From contig NZ_RKIE01000001.1 of assembly GCF_003751785.1 (NCBI RefSeq), positions 1,589,564 through 1,653,563 on the forward strand: a stretch of DNA of 64,000 nucleotides. The letters are read 5' to 3'. Positions 52,276-64,000 of the stretch are shown in pieces. The notes beneath the pieces were generated by a model. That model was not told where the DNA came from. It ran no database searches and saw only the letters and a program-made list of their open reading frames with translations. This DNA is from Frigoribacterium sp. PhB160. Its GTDB lineage: Bacteria; Actinomycetota; Actinomycetes; Actinomycetales; Microbacteriaceae. The position numbers were made by a program, and so were the translations under genes. Every line of letters starts with the position of its first letter. Position 1 is the first letter of the stretch.

Positions 52276-52397
52276 GGCCGCGCCCGGCCGGCGAGGTCGG
52301 ACACCGATCGGAGTCTCCGTCGAGGTTCGTCGAGGGCCGGGCGGAACGGTCGGTCCGCCGCGCCGGTGACGAAAGCTCGCGACGTACGAGGCTCTGA

Positions 52398-52403
52398 CAT
52401 ACT
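52398..52403 (+). promoter_or_regulatory. Leaderless-type -10 box of the histidine kinase gene
   Basis: CATACT, seven bases (GGGGCGG), then ATG at 52411. The G-rich spacer is too close to the start to serve as a ribosome-binding site. Confidence 0.45.
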
Positions 52404-52410
52404 GGGGCGG

Positions 52411-53769
52411 ATGACCGTCGACGCCCCGTGCCCGCCCCGCGACAGCGACGACGAGGCCGCATGGCGACGCAGCCCGCCGACGCGGCGCGACGTCAGGACC
52501 GACGCCTGGATCGCCGCCGGGCTGCTCGCGCTCGGCGCCCTGACCTGGCTCCTCTCCTCGGTCGTCATGCGGTCGCTCGACGGCGGCGTCACGGGACCCG
52601 TCGAGTCCGCGGCCTGGCTGCTGGCCCTCACGGCACCGGTGGCCCTCCGTCGCCGCTGGCCCGTGGCCGTCATGGTCGTCGTCAGCCTCGCCGTCGTCGG
52701 CAGCGAGCTGCGCGGCTACCCCGACGGGCTCGCGCCGTCGTTGGCCGTCTTCCTCGTCATCTACACCGCCAACGCCTGGGGTCGCTCCCGGCGCACGGCC
52801 CTCGTCGCGAGCGTCGTCGTCACCGCCGTGGTCTTCGCGTGGCTCGCGGTCAGCGTGGCCGGCGAGGTCGCGGGAGACCAGGCCGCCGACGGCGGCGACA
52901 CCGGCGCGACGGCCGCCTCCATCGCGTACGTGGTCGTCTTCAACGGCATCTTCTTCGTCTCGGCCGTGTACTTCGGACGGTCGTCCCGGGTGTCGGCCGC
53001 GCGCCTCCACGCCCTCGAACGCGCCGGGGTCGACCTGCGCGCCGCACAGGAGATCGTCGCCGACCAGGCGATCGGCGAGGAGCGCACCCGCATCGCCCGC
53101 GAGCTGCACGACGTCGTCGCGCACCACGTGGCGGTCATCGGCATCCAGGCCGGTGCCGCCCGGCGCACCCTCGACCGACCCGAGATCGCCCGCGGGGCCC
53201 TCGCGGCCGTCGAGAGCACCGCCCGGACGACCATCGACGAGCTGGAGCGCCTCCTCAGCGTGCTCCGGGCCCGCGACCACGTCGAGTCGCCGCCGCCGAG
53301 CGGACCGGCGGCCCTCCCTCAGCTCGTGGCCGACACCCGTCGCCTCGGGCTCGACGTGCGCCTCAGCGTCGAGGGATCCGCCTGCGACGTGCCCGACAGC
53401 GTCGGCGTGACGGTTTACCGCGTCGCCCAGGAGGCCCTCACGAACACCCTCAAGCACGCCGCCGCCTCGACGGCCGTCGTCAGCCTCCGGTACCGCGACC
53501 GCGCGGTCGAGCTCGAGGTGTCCGACGACGGACGCGGGGCCCCGGCGACGTCGACCGCCCCGGCGACCGGCACGACGGGAGCGGGCCTCGGCCAGCGCGG
53601 CATGCGCGAGCGCGTCGACCTGCACGGCGGCGTCCTGCAGGTGGGGCCCCTGCCGCGCGGGGGCTACCGCGTCCGCGCCGTCCTGCCGGTGACCCGCTCA
53701 CGGTCCCGGTCCGACGAGGGCGCGGCGCCCTGGCGCTCCGTCGGCGACCTCGAGCCCCGGCCGCGCTGA
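52411..53769 (+). CDS. NarL-type sensor histidine kinase
   Basis: 452 aa. Four to five membrane helices (about residues 32-170) with only short loops suggest membrane or intramembrane sensing. The phospho-acceptor His is in ARELHDVVAHHVAVIGIQ near residue 233 (HisKA_3 type). The ATPase N-box has QEALTNTLKHA near 344, and the G-box GAGLGQRGMRERV is near 393. It pairs with the response regulator 70 bp downstream. The pair sits between mshC and PAC2, which are usually neighbours. Confidence 0.88.
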   Translation: MTVDAPCPPRDSDDEAAWRRSPPTRRDVRTDAWIAAGLLALGALTWLLSSVVMRSLDGGVTGPVESAAWLLALTAPVALRRRWPVAVMVVVSLAVVGSELRGYPDGLAPSLAVFLVIYTANAWGRSRRTALVASVVVTAVVFAWLAVSVAGEVAGDQAADGGDTGATAASIAYVVVFNGIFFVSAVYFGRSSRVSAARLHALERAGVDLRAAQEIVADQAIGEERTRIARELHDVVAHHVAVIGIQAGAARRTLDRPEIARGALAAVESTARTTIDELERLLSVLRARDHVESPPPSGPAALPQLVADTRRLGLDVRLSVEGSACDVPDSVGVTVYRVAQEALTNTLKHAAASTAVVSLRYRDRAVELEVSDDGRGAPATSTAPATGTTGAGLGQRGMRERVDLHGGVLQVGPLPRGGYRVRAVLPVTRSRSRSDEGAAPWRSVGDLEPRPR

Positions 53770-53839
53770 TCCGACGGGGGCCGCACGACAACGGCACGCC
53801 CCTGACCCCCACCACCGAACGACGACCACCGAGGTAGCC

Positions 53840-54574
53840 ATGCACCACACCAGCCCCGACTCCCGCGCGCAGCACGAGGCCTCCCGGGCCGGCGACCGCA
53901 CCGTCCGCGTCCTCCTCGTCGACGACCAGGAGCTCGTGCGGGCGGGGTTCCGCATCATCCTCGAGTCGGCCGTGGGCCTCGAGGTCGTCGGCGAGGCCGG
54001 CGACGGGGCCGCCGCGGTCGAGCTCGCGCGGACGACCCGGCCCGACGTCGTCGTCATGGACATCGAGATGCCGGGCGTCGACGGGCTCGAGGCCACGCGA
54101 CGCATCCTCGCCGAGTCGCCCGACGGCGGGCCCGCCGTGCTCGTGCTCACCACCTTCGGCCGCGGCGAGTACCTCTTCGCGGCCCTGCGGGCGGGGGCGA
54201 GCGGCTTCCTGCTCAAGACGGCCGGCCCGGAGGACCTGATCGACGCCGTCGCCGTCGTGCACCGGGGGGACGCCCTGCTCGCGCCCGAGCTGACCCGCAC
54301 GGTCGTCGCGCGGGCCCTGGCCGACCCCGCCCGGCCCGTCCTCGTGCCGAGCCCGCGGCTCAGGCTCCTCACCGAGCGGGAGCGCGAGGTGCTCGACCAG
54401 CTCGCCGGCGGGGCCTCGAACGCCGAGATCGCCCGCGCCCTCTACCTCGGCGAGGCGACGGTCAAGACGCACGTCTCGAACGTGCTCGGCAAGCTCGAGC
54501 TGCGCGACCGGACTGCCGCCGTCGTGTTCGCGTACGAGAACGGGGTCGTCGTGCCGGGAGCGGACCCGGCCTGA
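53840..54574 (+). CDS. NarL/LuxR-family response regulator
   Basis: 244 aa. The receiver domain has LLVDDQELVRAGF (acid pair, near residue 25) and the phosphorylated Asp in VVMDIEMPGVDGLEA near residue 74, with a Lys in GFLLKTAGPEDL near 126. The LuxR-type DNA-binding helix-turn-helix is LTEREREVLDQLAGGASNAEIARAL followed by ATVKTHVSNVLGKL, near residues 175-220. GAGGTAG precedes the ATG. Target genes are unknown. It is convergent with the PAC2 gene. Confidence 0.92.
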   Translation: MHHTSPDSRAQHEASRAGDRTVRVLLVDDQELVRAGFRIILESAVGLEVVGEAGDGAAAVELARTTRPDVVVMDIEMPGVDGLEATRRILAESPDGGPAVLVLTTFGRGEYLFAALRAGASGFLLKTAGPEDLIDAVAVVHRGDALLAPELTRTVVARALADPARPVLVPSPRLRLLTEREREVLDQLAGGASNAEIARALYLGEATVKTHVSNVLGKLELRDRTAAVVFAYENGVVVPGADPA

Positions 54575-54613: not shown

Positions 54614-55525
54614 TCAGACGACGGGCGGGTAGCCCGGCTCGTCCGGCCGACCGGCGCCGCCGTTCTTGCCGTCGCCCCGGCGGAGGTACTTCTCGAACTC
54701 CTGCGCGATGGCCTCGCCGCTCGCCTCGGGGGAGTCGACCGTGTCGCGGGCCTGCTCGAGCTGCTCGATGTAGCCCGCCATGTCGTCGTCGTCCGCCGCG
54801 AGGGCGTCGACGCCCTGCTCCCAGGCGGCCGACTCGGCCTCGAGGTCGCCGCGCGGCACGCTGACGCCGGCGACCTCGTCGAGCTTCTCGATGAGGGCCA
54901 GGGTCGCCTTGGGCGACGGGGCGTTGTGCACGTAGTGCGGCACGGAGGCCCAGATCGCGAGGGTGGGGACCCCGGCGGTCTCGAGGGCGTCGCCGAGCAC
55001 CGAGAGGATGCCGACCGGCCCCTCGTAGGTGCTGCGCTCCAGGCTCAGCTCGGCACGCACCTCCGCGTTGTCGCTGCTCGTGAAGACCGAGATGGGACGC
55101 GTGTGCGGCACGTCGGCGAGCATGGCGCCGAGGAAGACCACGGCCGTGACGTCGTGCACGTCGACGAGGTCGACGATCTCGGCCGAGAAGCTGCGCCAGC
55201 TGCGGGAGGGCTCGGCGCCGAGCAGCACGAGCACCTCGCTGCCGTCGGCCGTCGCCGGGTCGAGGCCCGTCGAGGTGTCGGGCGCCGCGTGCAGCTGGAT
55301 CCGGGGCCAGACGAGCGTGCGCTCGCCCTCCTCGTCGTGGCCGACCTGCGGACGCGTGAACTGGTAGTCGATGTACCGCTCGCCGTCGAGCTCGGCCACC
55401 GCCTCGAGCCCGAGGGTCTCGACGAGGCTGCGGGCGACGCCGCTGGCGGCCTCGCCCGCGTCGTTCCAGCCCTCGAAGGCGACGACGAGCAGCCGTCCCG
55501 TCGCGAAGTCGGTCGATCCAGTCAC
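54614..55525 (-). CDS. PAC2-family protein (proteasome assembly chaperone-like)
   Basis: 303 aa, soluble. The PAC2 fold is suggested by LLVVAFEGWNDAGEAASG near residue 12, EVLVLLGAEPSRSWRSF near 90 and a long conserved middle. In actinobacteria this family sits beside mshC and the Pup-proteasome locus; its function in bacteria is not settled. No proteasome genes are present here. The acidic C-terminal tail is variable. The GTG start at 55525 has GAGGA upstream. It is divergent from the HAD gene. Confidence 0.82.
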   Translation of the reverse strand: MTGSTDFATGRLLVVAFEGWNDAGEAASGVARSLVETLGLEAVAELDGERYIDYQFTRPQVGHDEEGERTLVWPRIQLHAAPDTSTGLDPATADGSEVLVLLGAEPSRSWRSFSAEIVDLVDVHDVTAVVFLGAMLADVPHTRPISVFTSSDNAEVRAELSLERSTYEGPVGILSVLGDALETAGVPTLAIWASVPHYVHNAPSPKATLALIEKLDEVAGVSVPRGDLEAESAAWEQGVDALAADDDDMAGYIEQLEQARDTVDSPEASGEAIAQEFEKYLRRGDGKNGGAGRPDEPGYPPVV

Positions 55526-55583: not shown

Positions 55584-57494
<1,911 letters not shown>

Positions 57495-57566
57495 GCTCGT
57501 CCCGGATCACCTGCGACCCTGCGGTCGCGCCCTGCGGCCCCGGCCGCACCGACCGAAGGAAGACCC

Positions 57567-58496
57567 GTGCGCCGCACCCTCCCCGCCCTCGTCGTGACCG
57601 TCGGGCTCCTGGCCTCGCTGACCGCGTGCGCGTCGGAGTCCGGCCCGGGTTCGGCGGGCTGCCCGCCGACGGGCGACGCCGCCTCCGTCGTGACCGCCAC
57701 CGGCGCCTTCGGCGAGAAGCCCGAGGTCCGCGTCCCGAGCCCCATCGTCACCACCGAGACCCAGGTCTCGACGCTGATCGAGGGCGACGGCCAGCGGATC
57801 GTCGACGGCACGCCCGTCGTCATCGACTACACCCTCTTCGACGGCGCCACCGGCGCCGAGGTGGAGGACAGCGGCTACGACGGCACGACGCAGAACCCCA
57901 TCACCGTGGGCGGCTCGGCCCTCGCGCCGCTGGCCGCCGCGCTGGAGTGCTCGACCGTCGGCTCGCGCCTCGCCGTCGCCGTCAAGGCGAGCGAGCTGTC
58001 GGCCTCGGTGCAGGGCACGGCGGTCGAGCCGAACGACGACCCCGACGCCGCGTACGTGGCCGTCGTCGACGTGAAGCGCGCGTTCCTCGCGAAGGCCGAC
58101 GGCAGCCTCGTGCCCGGCGAGAACGGCCTGCCCGCCGTCGTCACGGCGCCGGACGGCGCCCCCGGCATCACGCTGCCCGCCTCCGACGCCCCGACCGAGC
58201 AGCGGACGCACCTCGTGCGCTCCGGCTCCGGCCCCGAGCTGACCGCCGACGACACGGCCGTGGTGCAGTTCACGGCCACGACCTGGGCCGACCCGTCCAC
58301 CGTCGCCGCCTCCACCTGGACGAACGGCGGCACGGCGACGACCGTGGCCCTCTCGGCCGACGACCTCCCCGCCGAGGTCAAGTCGGCGCTCGTCGGCCAG
58401 CGCGTCGGCTCGCAGGTCATGACGGTCATTCCCGCGTCCGAGACCACCGGGCAGCAGACCTACGTCTACGTCTTCGACGTCCTGGGCGCGCTCTGA
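57567..58496 (+). CDS. FKBP-type peptidyl-prolyl isomerase-like lipoprotein
   Basis: 309 aa. A signal peptide with lipobox LASLTAC (Cys near residue 21) indicates a lipid-anchored extracytoplasmic protein. Two FKBP-like segments can be seen: residues about 75-165 (GTPVVIDYTLFDGATGAEVEDS) and about 220-309 (DDTAVVQFTATTW then VGSQVMTVIPASE), the second ending in YVYVFDVLGAL. Both lack several canonical aromatic active-site residues, so isomerase activity is doubtful. GAAGGAAG precedes the GTG. In related genomes it borders the Pup-proteasome genes. Confidence 0.8.
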   Translation: MRRTLPALVVTVGLLASLTACASESGPGSAGCPPTGDAASVVTATGAFGEKPEVRVPSPIVTTETQVSTLIEGDGQRIVDGTPVVIDYTLFDGATGAEVEDSGYDGTTQNPITVGGSALAPLAAALECSTVGSRLAVAVKASELSASVQGTAVEPNDDPDAAYVAVVDVKRAFLAKADGSLVPGENGLPAVVTAPDGAPGITLPASDAPTEQRTHLVRSGSGPELTADDTAVVQFTATTWADPSTVAASTWTNGGTATTVALSADDLPAEVKSALVGQRVGSQVMTVIPASETTGQQTYVYVFDVLGAL

Positions 58497-58580: not shown

Positions 58581-59585
58581 GTGCCGACCTCCCGCGCCCC
58601 GAGGATCCCCGTCGAAGAGCGGCTGTTCAGCCTGGTCCTCGCCCTCCTCGCGACGGACGTCGGCCTGACGAAGTCCGAGATCCTCTCGACAGTCCAGGGC
58701 TATCGCCAGCGCTACGACACCGCCGGCGACAACGTCGCCCTCGAGCGCCAGTTCGAGCGCGACAAGGACGACATCCGCGAGCTCGGCGTGCCCCTCGAGA
58801 CGCTCGACGACCCCGCAGCGTCCGGCAACAACCAGCTGCTGCGCTACCGCATCCCCCGCGGCAGCTACGAGCTGCCCCTCGACATCTCGTTCTCGCCGGA
58901 GGAGACCGCGCTGCTGACGCTCGCCGCCATGGTGTGGCGCGAGGGCACCCTCTCCGGCGAGTCGCGCCGGGCGCTGCTCAAGCTCCGCTCGCTCGGGGGC
59001 GCCGCGAGCGTGCCCGAGCTCGAGTACGCCCCGCGCATCCGGTCCCGCGACGCCGCCTTCGAGCCCCTCCGCACCGCCCTCGACCGCGGGGTCGTGGTGC
59101 GTTTCGACTACCTCAAGCCGGGCGACGCCGAGCCGAGGAGGCGCGAGCTCGCGCCGTTCGCGCTGGTCCAGCACCAGGGCCGCTGGGTCGTCGCCGCCGT
59201 CGAGCCCGACACGGGCTCGCGCAAGAACTTCCTCCTGTCGCGCGTCGTCGGCCCGGTCCAGGTGACGACGAGGCCGTTCGAGCGCCCGGCCGACGCGACC
59301 GCCGAGTCGGTGCTCGCGGGCCTCGAGGCGCTCCGGCGCTCGAACACGGCGCTCGTGCGCGTCGTCGAGGCCTCCGACGCCGAGGTCCGCCTGTCGAAGC
59401 GTCGAGGCACAGAGGCGCGGGGGGACGACGTGCTGGCGGTGCACTACTCCGACCAGCAGGTGCTCGCCGAGGAGCTCTCGTCGTTCGGTCCCGAGGTGAC
59501 CGTCCTCGAGCCGCAGGGCCTCCGCGACCTCGTCCTCGCGCGCCTCCGTCGACTCGCCGCCGACCATTCGGGGGAGGCCGCGTGA
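58581..59585 (+). CDS. pafB: PafB, WYL-domain transcriptional regulator
   Basis: 334 aa. An N-terminal winged-helix region (residues 10-75, including TKSEILSTVQGYRQRYD) is followed by a WYL domain (about residues 150-225: GVVVRFDYLKPGDAEPRRRELAPFALVQHQGRWVVAAV) and a WCX-type C-terminus. PafB and PafC act together as the DNA-damage activator that opens many LexA-independent repair promoters in mycobacteria. The GTG is set by TAGGAT. Its TGA overlaps the pafC GTG (GTGA), consistent with a heterodimer. Confidence 0.9.
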   Translation: MPTSRAPRIPVEERLFSLVLALLATDVGLTKSEILSTVQGYRQRYDTAGDNVALERQFERDKDDIRELGVPLETLDDPAASGNNQLLRYRIPRGSYELPLDISFSPEETALLTLAAMVWREGTLSGESRRALLKLRSLGGAASVPELEYAPRIRSRDAAFEPLRTALDRGVVVRFDYLKPGDAEPRRRELAPFALVQHQGRWVVAAVEPDTGSRKNFLLSRVVGPVQVTTRPFERPADATAESVLAGLEALRRSNTALVRVVEASDAEVRLSKRRGTEARGDDVLAVHYSDQQVLAEELSSFGPEVTVLEPQGLRDLVLARLRRLAADHSGEAA

Positions 59586-60556
59586 CCGACCGCCGCCCCG
59601 CGCCCCAGGCGACCGACAAGCTCGCGCTGCTGCTCGCCCTCGTGCCGTGGCTCATCGACAACGAGCGGGTCGGCGTCGCCGCGGCGGCCGAGCACTTCGG
59701 GGTGAGCGTGGCGCAGATCCGACGCGCGGTGGAGCTCATCGCCGTCTCGGGCGTGCCGGGGGAGACCAACCAGTACCAGCACGGCGACCTCTTCGACATC
59801 GCCTGGGACGACTTCGAGCAGAACGACGTCATCCAGCTCACCAACCTGGTCGCCATCGACGAGTCGCCCCGCTTCTCGGCGCGCGAGGCGGCCGCCCTCA
59901 TCGCCGGGCTGCAGTACCTCTCGTCGCTGCCCGAGCACGCCGACCGCAGCGCCGTGGCGTCGCTGATGTCGAAGCTGTCGAGGGGGGCCTCGGCCGAGCC
60001 GAGCCAGGTGGCGGTCGACCAGAACGAGACCGACGGCGTGCTGGCCCTCGTCGGCCGGGCCGTGGAGCAGGGCGTCCAGCTCGAGTTCGACTACGCCGGC
60101 GCGCGCGGGCAGCAGGAGCGCCGACGCGTCGACCCGCTGCGCGTCGAGTCGCAGGACGCCGACTGGTACCTCCGCGCGTGGGACCACGCTCGCGAGGCGC
60201 TGCGCACCTTCCGCGTCGACCGCATCACGTCCCCGGCCCTCTCGGCGACGCCGATCGCCCACCGCGCCGCCGACGTCGCGCTGCCCGAGACCCTGTTCTC
60301 GGGCTCGCCCGACGACGTCGTCGTGACCGTCGAGATCGACGCAGCTGCCGCGCCGCTGCTCGACGACTGGTCGCCCGTCGACGTCGAGCCGGTGGCCGGC
60401 GACCGCACGCGCCTGTCGCTCCGCGTCGAGCAGATCAGCACGGTCGTGCGCCTCGTGGCGGGACTGCCGGGGCGCGCCTGCGTGGTCGCGCCGCCCGCGG
60501 CACGCCGCGCCGTGGCGGAGTGGGCCGACCGCGCCGCCCAGAACTACGCCGACTGA
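59582..60556 (+). CDS. pafC: PafC, WYL-domain transcriptional regulator
   Basis: 324 aa paralogue of PafB. The winged helix is at residues 14-60 (NERVGVAAAAEHFGVSVAQIRRAVELIAVSG), and the WYL domain near 155-225 includes LEFDYAGARGQQERRRVDPLRVESQDADWYLRAWD with the DWYLRAW core. Its name comes from the neighbouring proteasome accessory factor genes in mycobacteria, which are missing here; the known role is damage-responsive transcription, not proteolysis. It overlaps pafB by four bases. Confidence 0.9.
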   Translation: MTDRRPAPQATDKLALLLALVPWLIDNERVGVAAAAEHFGVSVAQIRRAVELIAVSGVPGETNQYQHGDLFDIAWDDFEQNDVIQLTNLVAIDESPRFSAREAAALIAGLQYLSSLPEHADRSAVASLMSKLSRGASAEPSQVAVDQNETDGVLALVGRAVEQGVQLEFDYAGARGQQERRRVDPLRVESQDADWYLRAWDHAREALRTFRVDRITSPALSATPIAHRAADVALPETLFSGSPDDVVVTVEIDAAAAPLLDDWSPVDVEPVAGDRTRLSLRVEQISTVVRLVAGLPGRACVVAPPAARRAVAEWADRAAQNYAD

Positions 60557-60669: not shown

Positions 60670-60930
60670 ATGCTCGGAAACCTCACCGGTTGGCACCTGA
60701 TCATCATCCTGGCGATCATCCTGCTGTTGTTCGGCGCCCCCAAGCTGCCTGCTCTCGCGAAGAGCATCGCCCAGTCGATGCGCATCTTCAAGACCGAGAT
60801 CGGCGACGAGAAGAAGACCGACGGCGACGACGCCGTCCGACGCTCCTCGGGCGACGACACCGCTCGACCGGCCGCCGACACCCGCACCGCCCGTCCCACC
60901 TACGGCGACGACCTCCCGCCGAAGAACTGA
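60670..60930 (+). CDS. tatA: Sec-independent protein translocase TatA
   Basis: 86 aa. One N-terminal helix (LTGWHLIIILAIILLLFGAPKLPALAKSI) is followed by an amphipathic helix and a charged tail, the TatA plan. It polymerises with TatC to move folded proteins across the membrane. The conserved F-G pair is in LLFGAPKLP. Four bases separate it from tatC. No tatB is in the operon, which is usual in actinobacteria. Confidence 0.94.
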   Translation: MLGNLTGWHLIIILAIILLLFGAPKLPALAKSIAQSMRIFKTEIGDEKKTDGDDAVRRSSGDDTARPAADTRTARPTYGDDLPPKN

Positions 60931-60933
60931 CGC

Positions 60934-61761
60934 GTGGCCACGACGACGACTCGTGGCACGGACGAGGGCGGGCGCACGCCGCGGCAGCGCTCGGCCGACG
61001 GTCGCATGTCGCTGGGACAGCACCTCGTCGAGCTGCGCAAGAGGCTGTTCCGGTCTGCTCTCGCCCTGATCCTGGCGAGCGTCGCCGGCTTCTTCCTGTC
61101 GACCTACGTCCTCGACGTGCTGCGTGACCCCATCACCGCGATGGCCGAGGCGCGGGGCACGGCCGCGACCCTGAACTACCCGACGATCGCCGGCAGCTTC
61201 GACCTCCGCATCCAGATCGCCGTCACGGTCGGCGTCATCTTGTCGAGCCCCGTGTGGCTCTACCAGGTGTGGGCCTTCATCGTGCCCGCGCTGGTCCGCA
61301 AGGAGAAGGTCTACGCGGCGAGCTTCATCGGTTCGGCCATCCCGCTCTTCCTGCTGGGCTGCGCGAGCGGCTACTTCGTGCTTCCGCACATCGTCGAGGT
61401 GCTCACCGGCTTCGTCTCGACGGAGGACGCGGCGATCATCGACGCGAAGCAGTACTTCGACTTCGTGCTGAAGCTCATCCTCGCGGTCGGCATCGCGTTC
61501 GTGCTGCCCGTCTTCCTCGTGCTGCTCAACTTCGTCGGGGTCATCTCGGCAGTCGGCATCATCAAGGGCTGGCGGGTCGCCATCCTCCTCATCGCCCTCT
61601 TCACGGCCATCGCCACGCCCGCCGCCGACGTCTTCTCGATGTTCCTGCTGGCGATCCCGATGATCATCCTGTACTTCGCCGCGGCCGGCGTCGCGTGGCT
61701 GCACGACCGCCAGGTCGCCAAGCGGGTCGCCGCCCTCGACGCCGAGCTCGCCGGGAAGTGA
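60934..61761 (+). CDS. tatC: Sec-independent protein translocase TatC
   Basis: 275 aa, six membrane helices. It is the receptor for twin-arginine signal peptides. The conserved start MSLGQHLVELRKRLFRSALAL is near residue 24, with the Glu-Leu-Arg-x-Arg core. YQVWAFIVPALVRKEKVYA near residue 110 and FVLPVFLVLLNFVGVIS near 190 are typical. GTG start. The C-terminal tail (VAKRVAALDAELAGK) is charged. helY begins four bases after the stop. Confidence 0.95.
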   Translation: MATTTTRGTDEGGRTPRQRSADGRMSLGQHLVELRKRLFRSALALILASVAGFFLSTYVLDVLRDPITAMAEARGTAATLNYPTIAGSFDLRIQIAVTVGVILSSPVWLYQVWAFIVPALVRKEKVYAASFIGSAIPLFLLGCASGYFVLPHIVEVLTGFVSTEDAAIIDAKQYFDFVLKLILAVGIAFVLPVFLVLLNFVGVISAVGIIKGWRVAILLIALFTAIATPAADVFSMFLLAIPMIILYFAAAGVAWLHDRQVAKRVAALDAELAGK

Positions 61762-61765
61762 CCTC

Positions 61766-64000
61766 ATGACCACGAACGACCTCAGCCCCGCCGAGCGCTT
61801 CGCCGCCTCGAAGACCCGGGTGCGCAGCCCCCAGCTGCAGTCCTTCCGCTCCCGGCTGGGCTTCGCCCTCGACCCCTTCCAGGAGGCGGCCTGCGCCTCG
61901 GTCGAGGAGGGCTCGAGCGTCCTGGTGGCGGCCCCCACCGGGGCAGGCAAGACCCTCGTCGCCGAGTTCGCCATCCACCTCGCGATGCAGCACCCCCGCG
62001 ACAAGGTGTTCTACACGGCGCCGATGAAGGCGCTCAGCAACCAGAAGTTCAACGAGCTCGTGGCCGAGTACGGCGCCTCCGAGGTGGGCCTGCTCACCGG
62101 AGACACGAACGTCAACTCCCGCGCCCGCATCGTCGTCATGACGACCGAGGTGCTCCGCAACATGCTCTACGCGGGCTCCGACATGCTCGACGACCTCCGC
62201 TACGTCGTGCTGGACGAGGTCCACTACCTGGCCGACCGCTTCCGCGGTGCCGTCTGGGAAGAAGTGATCATCCACCTCCCGCTCGACGTGCGCCTCATCT
62301 CGCTGAGCGCCACCGTGTCCAACGCGGAGGAGTTCGGCGACTGGCTGCAGACCGTCCGCGGCGGCACCGACGTCATCGTGTCGGAGGACCGCCCGGTACC
62401 CCTCGACCAGCACGTGCTCGTCGGCGGCAAGTTCCTCGACCTGTTCGACTCGAGCGGCCAGGCCGCGACGAACCGCGTCAACCCCGAGCTGCTGCGCGCC
62501 ACGTCGCTGTCCCGGCGGGGAGGCGGCAGCCGGCGCGACCGCGGAGGTCGCGAAGGCGGACAGGGCCACGGCCCGCGCGGCCACGTCGTGCCGCCCACCC
62601 AGCACTCCCAGGGCCGTCTCGACCGCTGGAAGATCGTCGAGATGCTCGACGACCAGAACCTGCTGCCCGCCATCTTCTTCGTCTTCAGCCGGGTCGGCTG
62701 CGACCAGGCGGTCAAGCAGGTGCTCCGCTCGGGCATCCGCCTCACCACGTCCGAGCAGCGCCGGGAGATCCGCGAGATCGTCGAGGCCCGCTGCCGCACG
62801 CTCCGCGACGAGGACCTCGCGGTGCTCGGCTACTGGCAGTGGCTCGACGGCCTCGAGCGCGGCGTCGCGGCGCACCACGCCGGCCTCCTGCCCGCCTTCA
62901 AGGAGGTCGTCGAGGAGCTCTTCCAGAAGAAGCTCGTCAAGGTCGTCTTCGCGACCGAGACCCTCGCCCTCGGCATCAACATGCCCGCGCGCACCGTCGT
63001 GCTCGAGAAGCTCGAGAAGTTCAACGGCGAGGCCCGCGTGCCGATCACGCCGGGGGAGTACACCCAGCTCACCGGCCGCGCCGGTCGCCGCGGCATCGAC
63101 GTCGAGGGCCACTCGCTCATCCAGTGGCAGCCCGGGCTCGACCCCCAGGCGGTCGCGAGCCTCGCCTCCCGCCGCACCTACCCGATGAACTCGAGCTTCC
63201 GGCCGACGTACAACATGGCCGTCAACCTGATCGAGCAGTTCGGCCGGTCGCGCACCCGCGAGGTGCTCGAGACGTCCTTCGCCCAGTTCCAGGCCGACCG
63301 CGCCGTCGTCGACCTGGCCCGCAAGGTCCGCACGCAGCAGGAGAGCCTCGACGGCTACGCCCGCAGCATGGAGTGCCACCTCGGCGACTTCGGCGAGTAC
63401 ACGACCATCCGCCGCGAGCTCGGCGACCTCGAGAAGCAGGGCGCGGCCCGGGCCGACTCGCAGTCGCGGGCCGAGCACGAGAAGCGCCAGCGCCGCCTCA
63501 CCGAGCTCCGTCGGCGGATGCGGCAGCACCCGTGCCACGCCTGCCCCGAGCGCGAGCAGCACGCACGATGGTCCGAGCGCTGGTTCAAGCTCAAGAAGAC
63601 GACCGACCAGCTGTCGGCGCAGATCCGCAGCCGCACGGGCGCGGTCGCGAAGGTCTTCGACCGGGTGACCGACGTCCTGCTCGACCGGGGCTACCTGGTG
63701 CCCCGCGCCTCCTCGTCCGCCGCCTCGACGACCGCGGGAGGCACGGCTCGCCTCGACCGCACCGCCGAGGTCGACGTCGCCCCGGCCGGCCGCACGCTGC
63801 GACGCATCTACGGCGACCGCGACCTGCTCGTGGCCGAGTCCCTGCGGCTCCGCCTGTGGGACATGCTCGACGTGCCCTCGATGGCGGCCATGGCCGCGAC
63901 CCTGGTCTACGAGCCGCGTCGCGACGAGGGCCAGGTGTCGGAGCGCTTCCTGCCCCGCGGGGCCTTCCGTGACGCGCTCGACGAGACGCAGAAGCTCTGG
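61766..64000 (+). CDS. helY: HelY-type DEAD/DEAH RNA helicase, SKI2/MTR4-like (partial)
   Basis: The first 745 codons; the gene continues past the right edge with no stop reached. It is a superfamily 2 helicase with the actinobacterial HelY plan: Walker A AAPTGAGKTLVAEF near residue 54, motif II VLDEVHYLADRF near 150, motif III ISLSATVSNAEEFG near 176, and motif VI QLTGRAGRRGIDVEG near 434. A Gly/Arg-rich insert lies near residues 250-285 and a CHAC Cys pair near 592. The probable role is RNA processing or turnover. The ATG is four bases after tatC, the conserved tatA-tatC-helY order. Confidence 0.93.
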   Translation, partial: MTTNDLSPAERFAASKTRVRSPQLQSFRSRLGFALDPFQEAACASVEEGSSVLVAAPTGAGKTLVAEFAIHLAMQHPRDKVFYTAPMKALSNQKFNELVAEYGASEVGLLTGDTNVNSRARIVVMTTEVLRNMLYAGSDMLDDLRYVVLDEVHYLADRFRGAVWEEVIIHLPLDVRLISLSATVSNAEEFGDWLQTVRGGTDVIVSEDRPVPLDQHVLVGGKFLDLFDSSGQAATNRVNPELLRATSLSRRGGGSRRDRGGREGGQGHGPRGHVVPPTQHSQGRLDRWKIVEMLDDQNLLPAIFFVFSRVGCDQAVKQVLRSGIRLTTSEQRREIREIVEARCRTLRDEDLAVLGYWQWLDGLERGVAAHHAGLLPAFKEVVEELFQKKLVKVVFATETLALGINMPARTVVLEKLEKFNGEARVPITPGEYTQLTGRAGRRGIDVEGHSLIQWQPGLDPQAVASLASRRTYPMNSSFRPTYNMAVNLIEQFGRSRTREVLETSFAQFQADRAVVDLARKVRTQQESLDGYARSMECHLGDFGEYTTIRRELGDLEKQGAARADSQSRAEHEKRQRRLTELRRRMRQHPCHACPEREQHARWSERWFKLKKTTDQLSAQIRSRTGAVAKVFDRVTDVLLDRGYLVPRASSSAASTTAGGTARLDRTAEVDVAPAGRTLRRIYGDRDLLVAESLRLRLWDMLDVPSMAAMAATLVYEPRRDEGQVSERFLPRGAFRDALDETQKLW

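Follow-up and report, generated by a model that had tools for sequence, protein, structure and literature searches.

Loss of the Pup-proteasome system on the Microbacteriaceae stem with retention of its neighbours and a change in the predicted PafB ssDNA site

The Pup-proteasome system (PPS) was lost on the stem of Microbacteriaceae. We are confident in a family-stem loss that took arc, dop, pup, prcB, prcA, and pafA, together with absence of the unlinked activator BPA, and left the neighbouring genes in place. Aligned PafB sequences show that the predicted ssDNA-binding site of this protein changed on the same stem branch. The altered PafB sensor is a new observation that was absent from an earlier note on this DNA.

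The window, the whole 64,000-nucleotide stretch of DNA that was analysed, is chromosomal DNA of Frigoribacterium (Microbacteriaceae) and belongs to a 3.34 Mb genome (G000) that is assembled in 4 contigs and is 99.97% complete, at G000:C1:1589564-1653563. The locus reads PAC2 (reverse strand), HAD, trmI, a 72-bp gap, an FKBP-like lipoprotein gene, pafB, pafC, tatA, tatC, and helY (Table 1). Pfam identifies PAC2, HAD, TrmI-like, PafB, PafC, TatA, TatC, and HelY, and the earlier note's statement that the flanking genes are kept in order stands. Its spacing is also exact, with 72 bp separating the end of the trmI stop codon (57494) from the GTG start codon of the FKBP gene (57567). As the note claimed, arc, dop, pup, prc, and pafA are absent between trmI and helY, and none was found elsewhere in the genome; PafBC, PAC2, and the FKBP gene remain at the locus. 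The start codons of trmI and pafC were picked by reading. The HAD gene has the same position in most of the loci compared. A histidine kinase and response regulator pair, named from open reading frame reading, occupies 52366–54574 between the presumed mshC and PAC2.

Table 1. Features of the trmI–helY locus in the window.
Feature	Coordinates	Strand	Evidence
PAC2-family gene, ParJ/Rv2125 type	54614..55525	-	Pfam PAC2 (PF09754), 194.8 bits
HAD-family hydrolase gene, left flank	55609..56346	+	Pfam HAD_2/Hydrolase
trmI, tRNA methyltransferase, left deletion edge	56424..57494	+	TrmI-like_N 86.6 bits, GCD14 81.9 bits
72-bp scar, site of arc-dop-pup-prcB-prcA-pafA in relatives	57495..57566	.	sequence, gene ends
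FKBP-like lipoprotein gene, diverged, right deletion edge, GTG start	57567..58496	+	FKBP_C 19.3 bits, sub-threshold
pafB, HTH-WYL-WCX, predicted WYL ssDNA site altered	58581..59585	+	Pfam WYL, WCX
pafC, HTH_PafC-WYL-WCX, WYL arginines kept	59582..60556	+	Pfam HTH_PafC, 108 bits
tatA, right flank	60670..60930	+	Pfam TatA_B_E, 51.9 bits
tatC, right flank	60934..61761	+	Pfam TatC, 195 bits
helY-type helicase gene, right flank, extends beyond window	61766..64000	+	Pfam DEAD, DSHCT

The whole-genome profile search that the earlier note had proposed for Pup, PafA/Dop, Arc, and PrcA/PrcB found no copy elsewhere, and no relocation was seen. PafA/Dop (PF03136), proteasome subunits (PF00227), and Pup were not detected anywhere in the window assembly, and a six-frame search for a small or relocated pup was also negative. 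ARC (TIGR03689) did not exceed its curated cut-off in this assembly; the best match scored 154 bits against a cut-off of 504.75 and spanned only model positions 168–377 of 512. The absence extends to the family, for which genome-search family f1 was taken as Microbacteriaceae because the window's FKBP-like protein, scanned against named genomes, matched nine loci, every one in Frigoribacterium. PF03136 was found in none of 249 Microbacteriaceae genomes (85 genera), 225 of which have a completeness of 90% or more and contamination of no more than 5%. Each component was searched for in 60 genomes, comprising 37 from Microbacteriaceae and 23 from other families of the order. The Pup ligase/depupylase (PF03136), Pup (PF05639), and ARC/Mpa over the TIGR03689 cut-off were each found in 0/37 family genomes versus 22/23 of the others. 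The 20S subunits PrcB/PrcA (PF00227) were found in 0/37 versus 17/23, and BPA (PF10759) in 0/37 versus 14/23, all 14 among the 17 PF00227 carriers. BPA is said to co-occur strictly with the proteasome in passages of PMC8223512. Its absence is by itself weak evidence because three of the 17 proteasome carriers (G044, G048, and G057) also lack it. HslV or another PF00227 peptidase was considered as a replacement and rejected, since none was found in the 37 family genomes. The earlier note's clean loss is borne out, but it is not specific to this genome and affects the whole family.

Outside the family, the sole genome among the 23 sampled without a Pup ligase is G039. This 1.8 Mb genome (family f4) has no match to PafA/Dop, Pup, ARC over the cut-off, PF00227, BPA, or PafC, and PAC2 is present. 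It is a second PPS-less lineage, probably independent of the Microbacteriaceae loss. Its relative G056 has pupylation genes and no proteasome, and is one of five sampled order genomes with PF03136 and without PF00227 (G038, G045, G047, G055, and G056). Corynebacterium glutamicum, used as a control, matches PF03136 and Pup and does not match PF00227. In an even sample of the phylum, PF03136 was found in 170 of 396 genomes at E ≤ 0.001, of which 169 are above the cut-off. A passage of a 2021 review describes the locus as 'present in all Actinobacteria', and passages of PMC6466877 state that about half of sequenced actinobacteria lost the core subunits only. No earlier published statement of the Microbacteriaceae loss appears in the titles, abstract openings, and some passages of the literature matches listed.

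The intact locus of relatives defines what was removed. The genes detected in Pup-bearing members of the order run trmI-arc-dop-pup-(prcB-prcA)-pafA-FKBP. In 19 of these 22 genomes pafA is followed directly by FKBP among the detected genes, which corrects the earlier note's placement of FKBP before pafA. A weak FKBP match also follows pafA in G045, none was found at the locus of G056 or G057, and searching with the window FKBP protein gave no hit between prcA and pafA in intact loci. Because FKBP follows pafA and the six missing genes are contiguous, a single contiguous deletion (arc-dop-pup-prcB-prcA-pafA) suffices to account for the locus. The block is bracketed by trmI and FKBP in 13 other families of the order, among them the sister family f6. 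Two genomes of other orders, G450 and G493, read trmI-arc-dop-pup-prcB-prcA-pafA-FKBP-pafB-pafC, and the FKBP query detected nothing in five more genomes of other orders or classes. These data show that the ancestral locus held the genes, a point on which the earlier note's reading depended.

The deletion junction is shared across the family. The locus was mapped in 24 family genomes (22 genera). Both flanks of the junction are present in 23 of these (21 genera), and in G027 the contig stops within FKBP. The trmI and FKBP genes are adjacent in 22 of the 23 readable genomes and in 20 of the 21 genera. In G031 they are separated by a glycosyl hydrolase gene of family GH10 (PF00331, 291 bits; L070:6664-7905), and two tandem FKBP-like genes lie between trmI and pafB in L059 (G019) and L074 (G035). 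A search of 166 PPS protein segments against the 23 family junctions detected no PPS gene remnants above the control; there were 195 weak hits at E ≤ 1 (best 0.002) compared to 191 (best 0.008) with reversed proteins.

A tree was built from five flanking proteins of the locus, and 40 of 55 genomes were kept. The 15 genomes left out had too few genes recovered, and 13 of them are from the 22 Pup-bearing order members. The 24 family members form one clade (SH-aLRT 100). Family f6, which has a complete PPS, is the sister of this clade with an SH-aLRT of 90, and its identity as the sister group is moderately supported. Five genomes from other orders group together, and when the tree is rooted there, Microbacteriaceae nest among PPS-bearing rows. 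This nesting places the loss on the family's stem, which supplies the date that the earlier note had sought from a comparison of the locus across Microbacteriaceae and relatives. A sixth, distant outgroup (G360, branch 2.4) lands among the order's rows, most likely because of its long branch.

PafBC is retained in most of the family. PafB and PafC are encoded by adjacent genes, both with Pfam WYL and WCX domains, and HTH_PafC is found in PafC. Over nearly its full length the window PafB can be aligned to 9fnd/7p5x and to the PafB portion of 6sj9, and the window PafC likewise to its solved relatives 6sj9 and 7p5x. The PafC HTH was found in 35 of 37 family genomes. The 0.9 Mb family member G030 gave no PafB or PafC at its locus. 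The 1.4 Mb family member G020 encodes a degenerate 701-residue PafB-PafC fusion (L076:4876-6981) whose PafC half lacks the FRxDR arginines; it was first counted as PafBC-less and was removed from that group because the fusion is present. The PafB helix that carries R44 and R48 (A. aurescens numbering) is described in passages of PMC6789036. By alignment this helix is intact in the window protein.

Genomes were searched for a consensus taken to represent the RecA-NDp promoter motif. Exact matches numbered 24 in 10 of 15 genomes, and the pattern read backwards gave none. With one mismatch allowed, ten family genomes with PafBC gave 196 matches versus 38 in the control, compared to 25 versus 37 in three genomes that lack a PafC match (the family member G030, and G039 and G056 of f4). 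The contrast between PafBC-bearing and PafC-less genomes has a Fisher p of ~5e-11, computed on sites that are not independent. The motif is also enriched in the PPS-bearing genomes G037 (24 versus 0) and G058 (18 versus 1). Enrichment was not detected in the family member G025 (12 versus 11), in G041 (17 versus 16), a genome of sister family f6 that bears both PPS and PafBC, or in G020 with its degenerate fused PafBC (18 versus 17). The motif does not follow PafBC everywhere, as G041 and G025 are unenriched. In G000, a start codon lies 5–10 nt past the -10 box at 14 of 19 sites, compared to 8.75% of random positions within the same stretches; the start codons counted are ATG or GTG codons belonging to open frames 60 or more codons long. 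This spacing is as would be expected of leaderless promoters. The recA site (recA at L182) has one mismatch to the consensus and no start codon 5–10 nt downstream; the recA start is further away. Pfam identified recA, uvrB, uvrD, dnaX, an XPB-type helicase gene, and an AlkZ-like glycosylase gene downstream of G000 sites. Other products encoded downstream of sites are HIT, GNAT/SCP2, DUF3072, and T5orf172 proteins and a ParA-type ATPase. Two more downstream genes are presumably radA and mfd, for which Pfam gave domains only. The remaining sites precede a product without an assignment or no clear gene.

The mycobacterial PafBC is activated by ssDNA through the WYL domain of PafB, according to passages of PMC11804915. 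The same source reports that ssDNA binding is abolished by R211A/R214A together, by Y196A, by R181A, or by R181A/R204A/R208A, and that PafB Y196A still associates with RNA polymerase. The mycobacterial residue numbers were mapped onto the family PafBs by alignment. The window PafB keeps R181 and R214 and has Y196 replaced by V, R204 by T, R208 by K, and R211 by L (L218). The family census comprises 35 PafB sequences, one per genome, from 20 genera, with 16 sequences from the window's genus. The R211 position is Leu in 35/35 family PafBs and Arg in none, whereas it is Arg in 23 of the 24 readable sequences among 25 other PafBs, with G057 carrying Asn. One of the 35 family PafBs retains Tyr at the Y196 position and the other 34 have lost it, versus Tyr in 25/25 others, and R204 is Arg in 3/35 versus 24 of 25. 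R181 is kept in 34/35 and R214 in 35/35, and the R208 position is Arg in 17 and Lys in 18. The full set of R181, Y196, R204, R208, R211, and R214 that ssDNA binding needs in Mycobacterium does not occur in the family PafBs. The G020 fusion also reads FLLSR. R211 and Y196 are both kept in sister family f6. They are also both kept in G045, G047, and G055, which lost the proteasome and kept pupylation; these are the three of the five genomes with proteasome-only loss that yielded a PafB. By alignment, promoter reading by PafBC is predicted to be conserved, and the sensing pocket is not.

PafC keeps its own WYL arginines. The PafC WYL columns could be read in 21 family genomes, with 14 of 35 rows unreadable (13 loci too short and one broken frame in G024). 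PafC R201 is kept in 20/21 of these and R204 in 21/21. An Arg follows WYL in 19/21, and Glu is found there in 17/24 others. The net charge of the PafB WYL domain is lower in the family, with a mean of 2.60 (n = 20) versus 4.83 (n = 24), and a Mann-Whitney p of 0.0033 that is uncorrected for kinship. The PafC WYL charge is unchanged (0.95, n = 19, versus 0.71, n = 24; p 0.9). These comparisons omitted 15 more genomes of the window's genus, for which G000 stood in, and the PafB of G564 and the PafC of G024, which have gaps. The idea that positive charge moved as a whole from PafB to PafC was rejected because the PafC charge is unchanged, which leaves the single Arg after WYL as the only hint.

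The PafB changes could mean that PafBC is a leftover in the course of being lost and that the WYL substitutions mark decay after PPS loss. The loss of ssDNA-site residues, the missing PafB and PafC of the reduced genome G030, and the degenerate fusion of G020 fit this idea, but decay would scatter substitutions and break frames, whereas the family shows a uniform Leu together with an invariant R214. The retention of PafC in nearly all family genomes and the enrichment of the promoter motif in most PafBC-bearing family genomes tested, with sites near start codons in G000, also argue against decay, which we consider improbable.

The earlier note asked what a PAC2 chaperone-like protein does without a proteasome. 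That puzzle dissolves. PAC2 proteins occur in 60/60 sampled genomes, with or without a proteasome, and the window protein is of the ParJ/Rv2125 type; survival of PAC2 is no paradox because of its type and because PAC2 proteins do not track the proteasome. Among solved structures it scores highest with 3mnf (203 bits) and Rv2125 (5un0, 193 bits), compared to 68 bits for SCO1997 (3e35), and by the same comparison the second PAC2 protein of the genome is of the SCO1997/Rv2714 type. We take 3mnf to be the S. avermitilis ParJ orthologue and 2wam to be Rv2714. The PAC2 copy beside HAD and trmI is retained in 20 of 23 family loci. Passages of a review by Chandra and Chater (PMC4255298) relate ParJ (SCO1662) to the PAC2 family, describe its action on ParA and a ParJ-ParA interaction in Streptomyces, name SCO1997 as its relative, and note that structures of ParJ/Rv2714-type PAC2 relatives exist. 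By analogy, the window PAC2 is probably a ParJ-type regulator of ParA and not a proteasome chaperone. A one-mismatch RecA-NDp-like site lies ~50 nt before a ParA-type ATPase gene in G000 (L185:497-1450), and the window PAC2 is of the ParA-regulating ParJ type. We know of no experimental link between PAC2 and ParA in Microbacteriaceae.

The window protein has a diverged FKBP domain, with an FKBP_C match of 19.3 bits, below the cut-off of 21.1. The label is supported by the G031 orthologue, which has a clear FKBP_C match (90.4 bits). Passages of Iyer et al. 2008 (PMC2588565) propose that PAC2 is an ancestral proteasome chaperone and that FKBP is a pupylation accessory. Both are kept without a proteasome or pupylation, and these are therefore unlikely to be their only roles. 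The same proposals would suit an unrelated degradation machine, missed by these searches, that took over from the proteasome and is served by the retained PAC2 and FKBP. We hold this to be quite improbable given that no PF00227 peptidase was found, a Pfam family that also covers HslV, that PAC2 is present whether or not a proteasome is, and that the FKBP domain of the window has diverged.

Acquisition of proteasome genes by horizontal transfer has been described in passages of PMC8223512, which would allow that Microbacteriaceae never had the locus and that other families gained the genes at the same slot. This is very improbable. The 13 other families, as well as G450 and G493, share the trmI-to-FKBP order, Microbacteriaceae are nested within lineages that bear the PPS, and many independent insertions into one slot are far less likely than one deletion. 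An assembly gap or relocation, conceivable for G000 because its 4 contigs are not fully closed, has a negligible probability given the contiguity of trmI and FKBP across genera, the negative genome-wide search for each component, and the family-wide absence of PF03136, single-contig genomes included, which already refutes relocation.

A stem loss with the neighbours retained would leave PafBC to act without the PPS. PafBC kept its promoter-reading helix, and matches to the RecA-NDp motif lie before recA and repair genes; PafB lost R211 and Y196 on the stem branch, and PafC kept its own WYL arginines. PafBC is likely still to switch on a DNA-damage regulon, now without pupylation to clear RecA afterwards. 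Passages of PMC8223512 report that the return of M. smegmatis RecA to pre-stress levels needs pupylation and the proteasome; without both, the response must end otherwise. Shut-off may rely on sensor release and other proteases. The chances are about even that the input of PafBC was retuned to a weaker or PafC-centred grip on ssDNA or to another ligand, and we infer that retuning the sensor is the simplest adaptation that fits the data. PPS loss and the PafB change are each one event on one branch, and the two could coincide by chance. We suggest only tentatively that PPS loss either compelled the DNA-damage switch to be redesigned or became possible through that redesign. Without pupylation-driven clearing of RecA and co-regulated proteins, selection might have moved sensing off the PafB ssDNA pocket; the new input would be PafC-centred or different, and the response would then shut off without pupylation-driven proteolysis. 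If so, Microbacteriaceae show in nature, across a whole family, how the PafBC response runs once its proteolytic arm is gone. PAC2, FKBP, and PafBC all outlive the PPS in most of the family, which makes testable the ideas that PAC2 is a proteasome chaperone, that FKBP assists pupylation, and that regulation by PafBC is tied to proteolysis. The coinciding PafB change makes PafBC switch-off without pupylation directly testable in bacteria that are harmless and culturable.

The Microbacteriaceae loss resembles the Corynebacterium-type loss of prcBA in that proteasome genes were secondarily lost from a conserved locus. In the Corynebacterium type pup, pafA, and dop stay, the state also seen in the five order genomes with PF03136 and without PF00227, whereas Microbacteriaceae lack the six core genes altogether, and no BPA was found. 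The window PAC2 protein is of the same sequence class as ParJ (SCO1662) and Rv2125. Like the mycobacterial PafBC response, the family has two adjacent HTH-WYL-WCX genes and RecA-NDp-type motifs before recA and repair genes, but unlike mycobacteria it has no Pup-proteasome to clear RecA and other products. In contrast to mycobacterial PafB, the family WYL site is without R211, Y196, and, in most sequences, R204. These altered defining residues justify treating the response of the family as a variant of the PafBC response.
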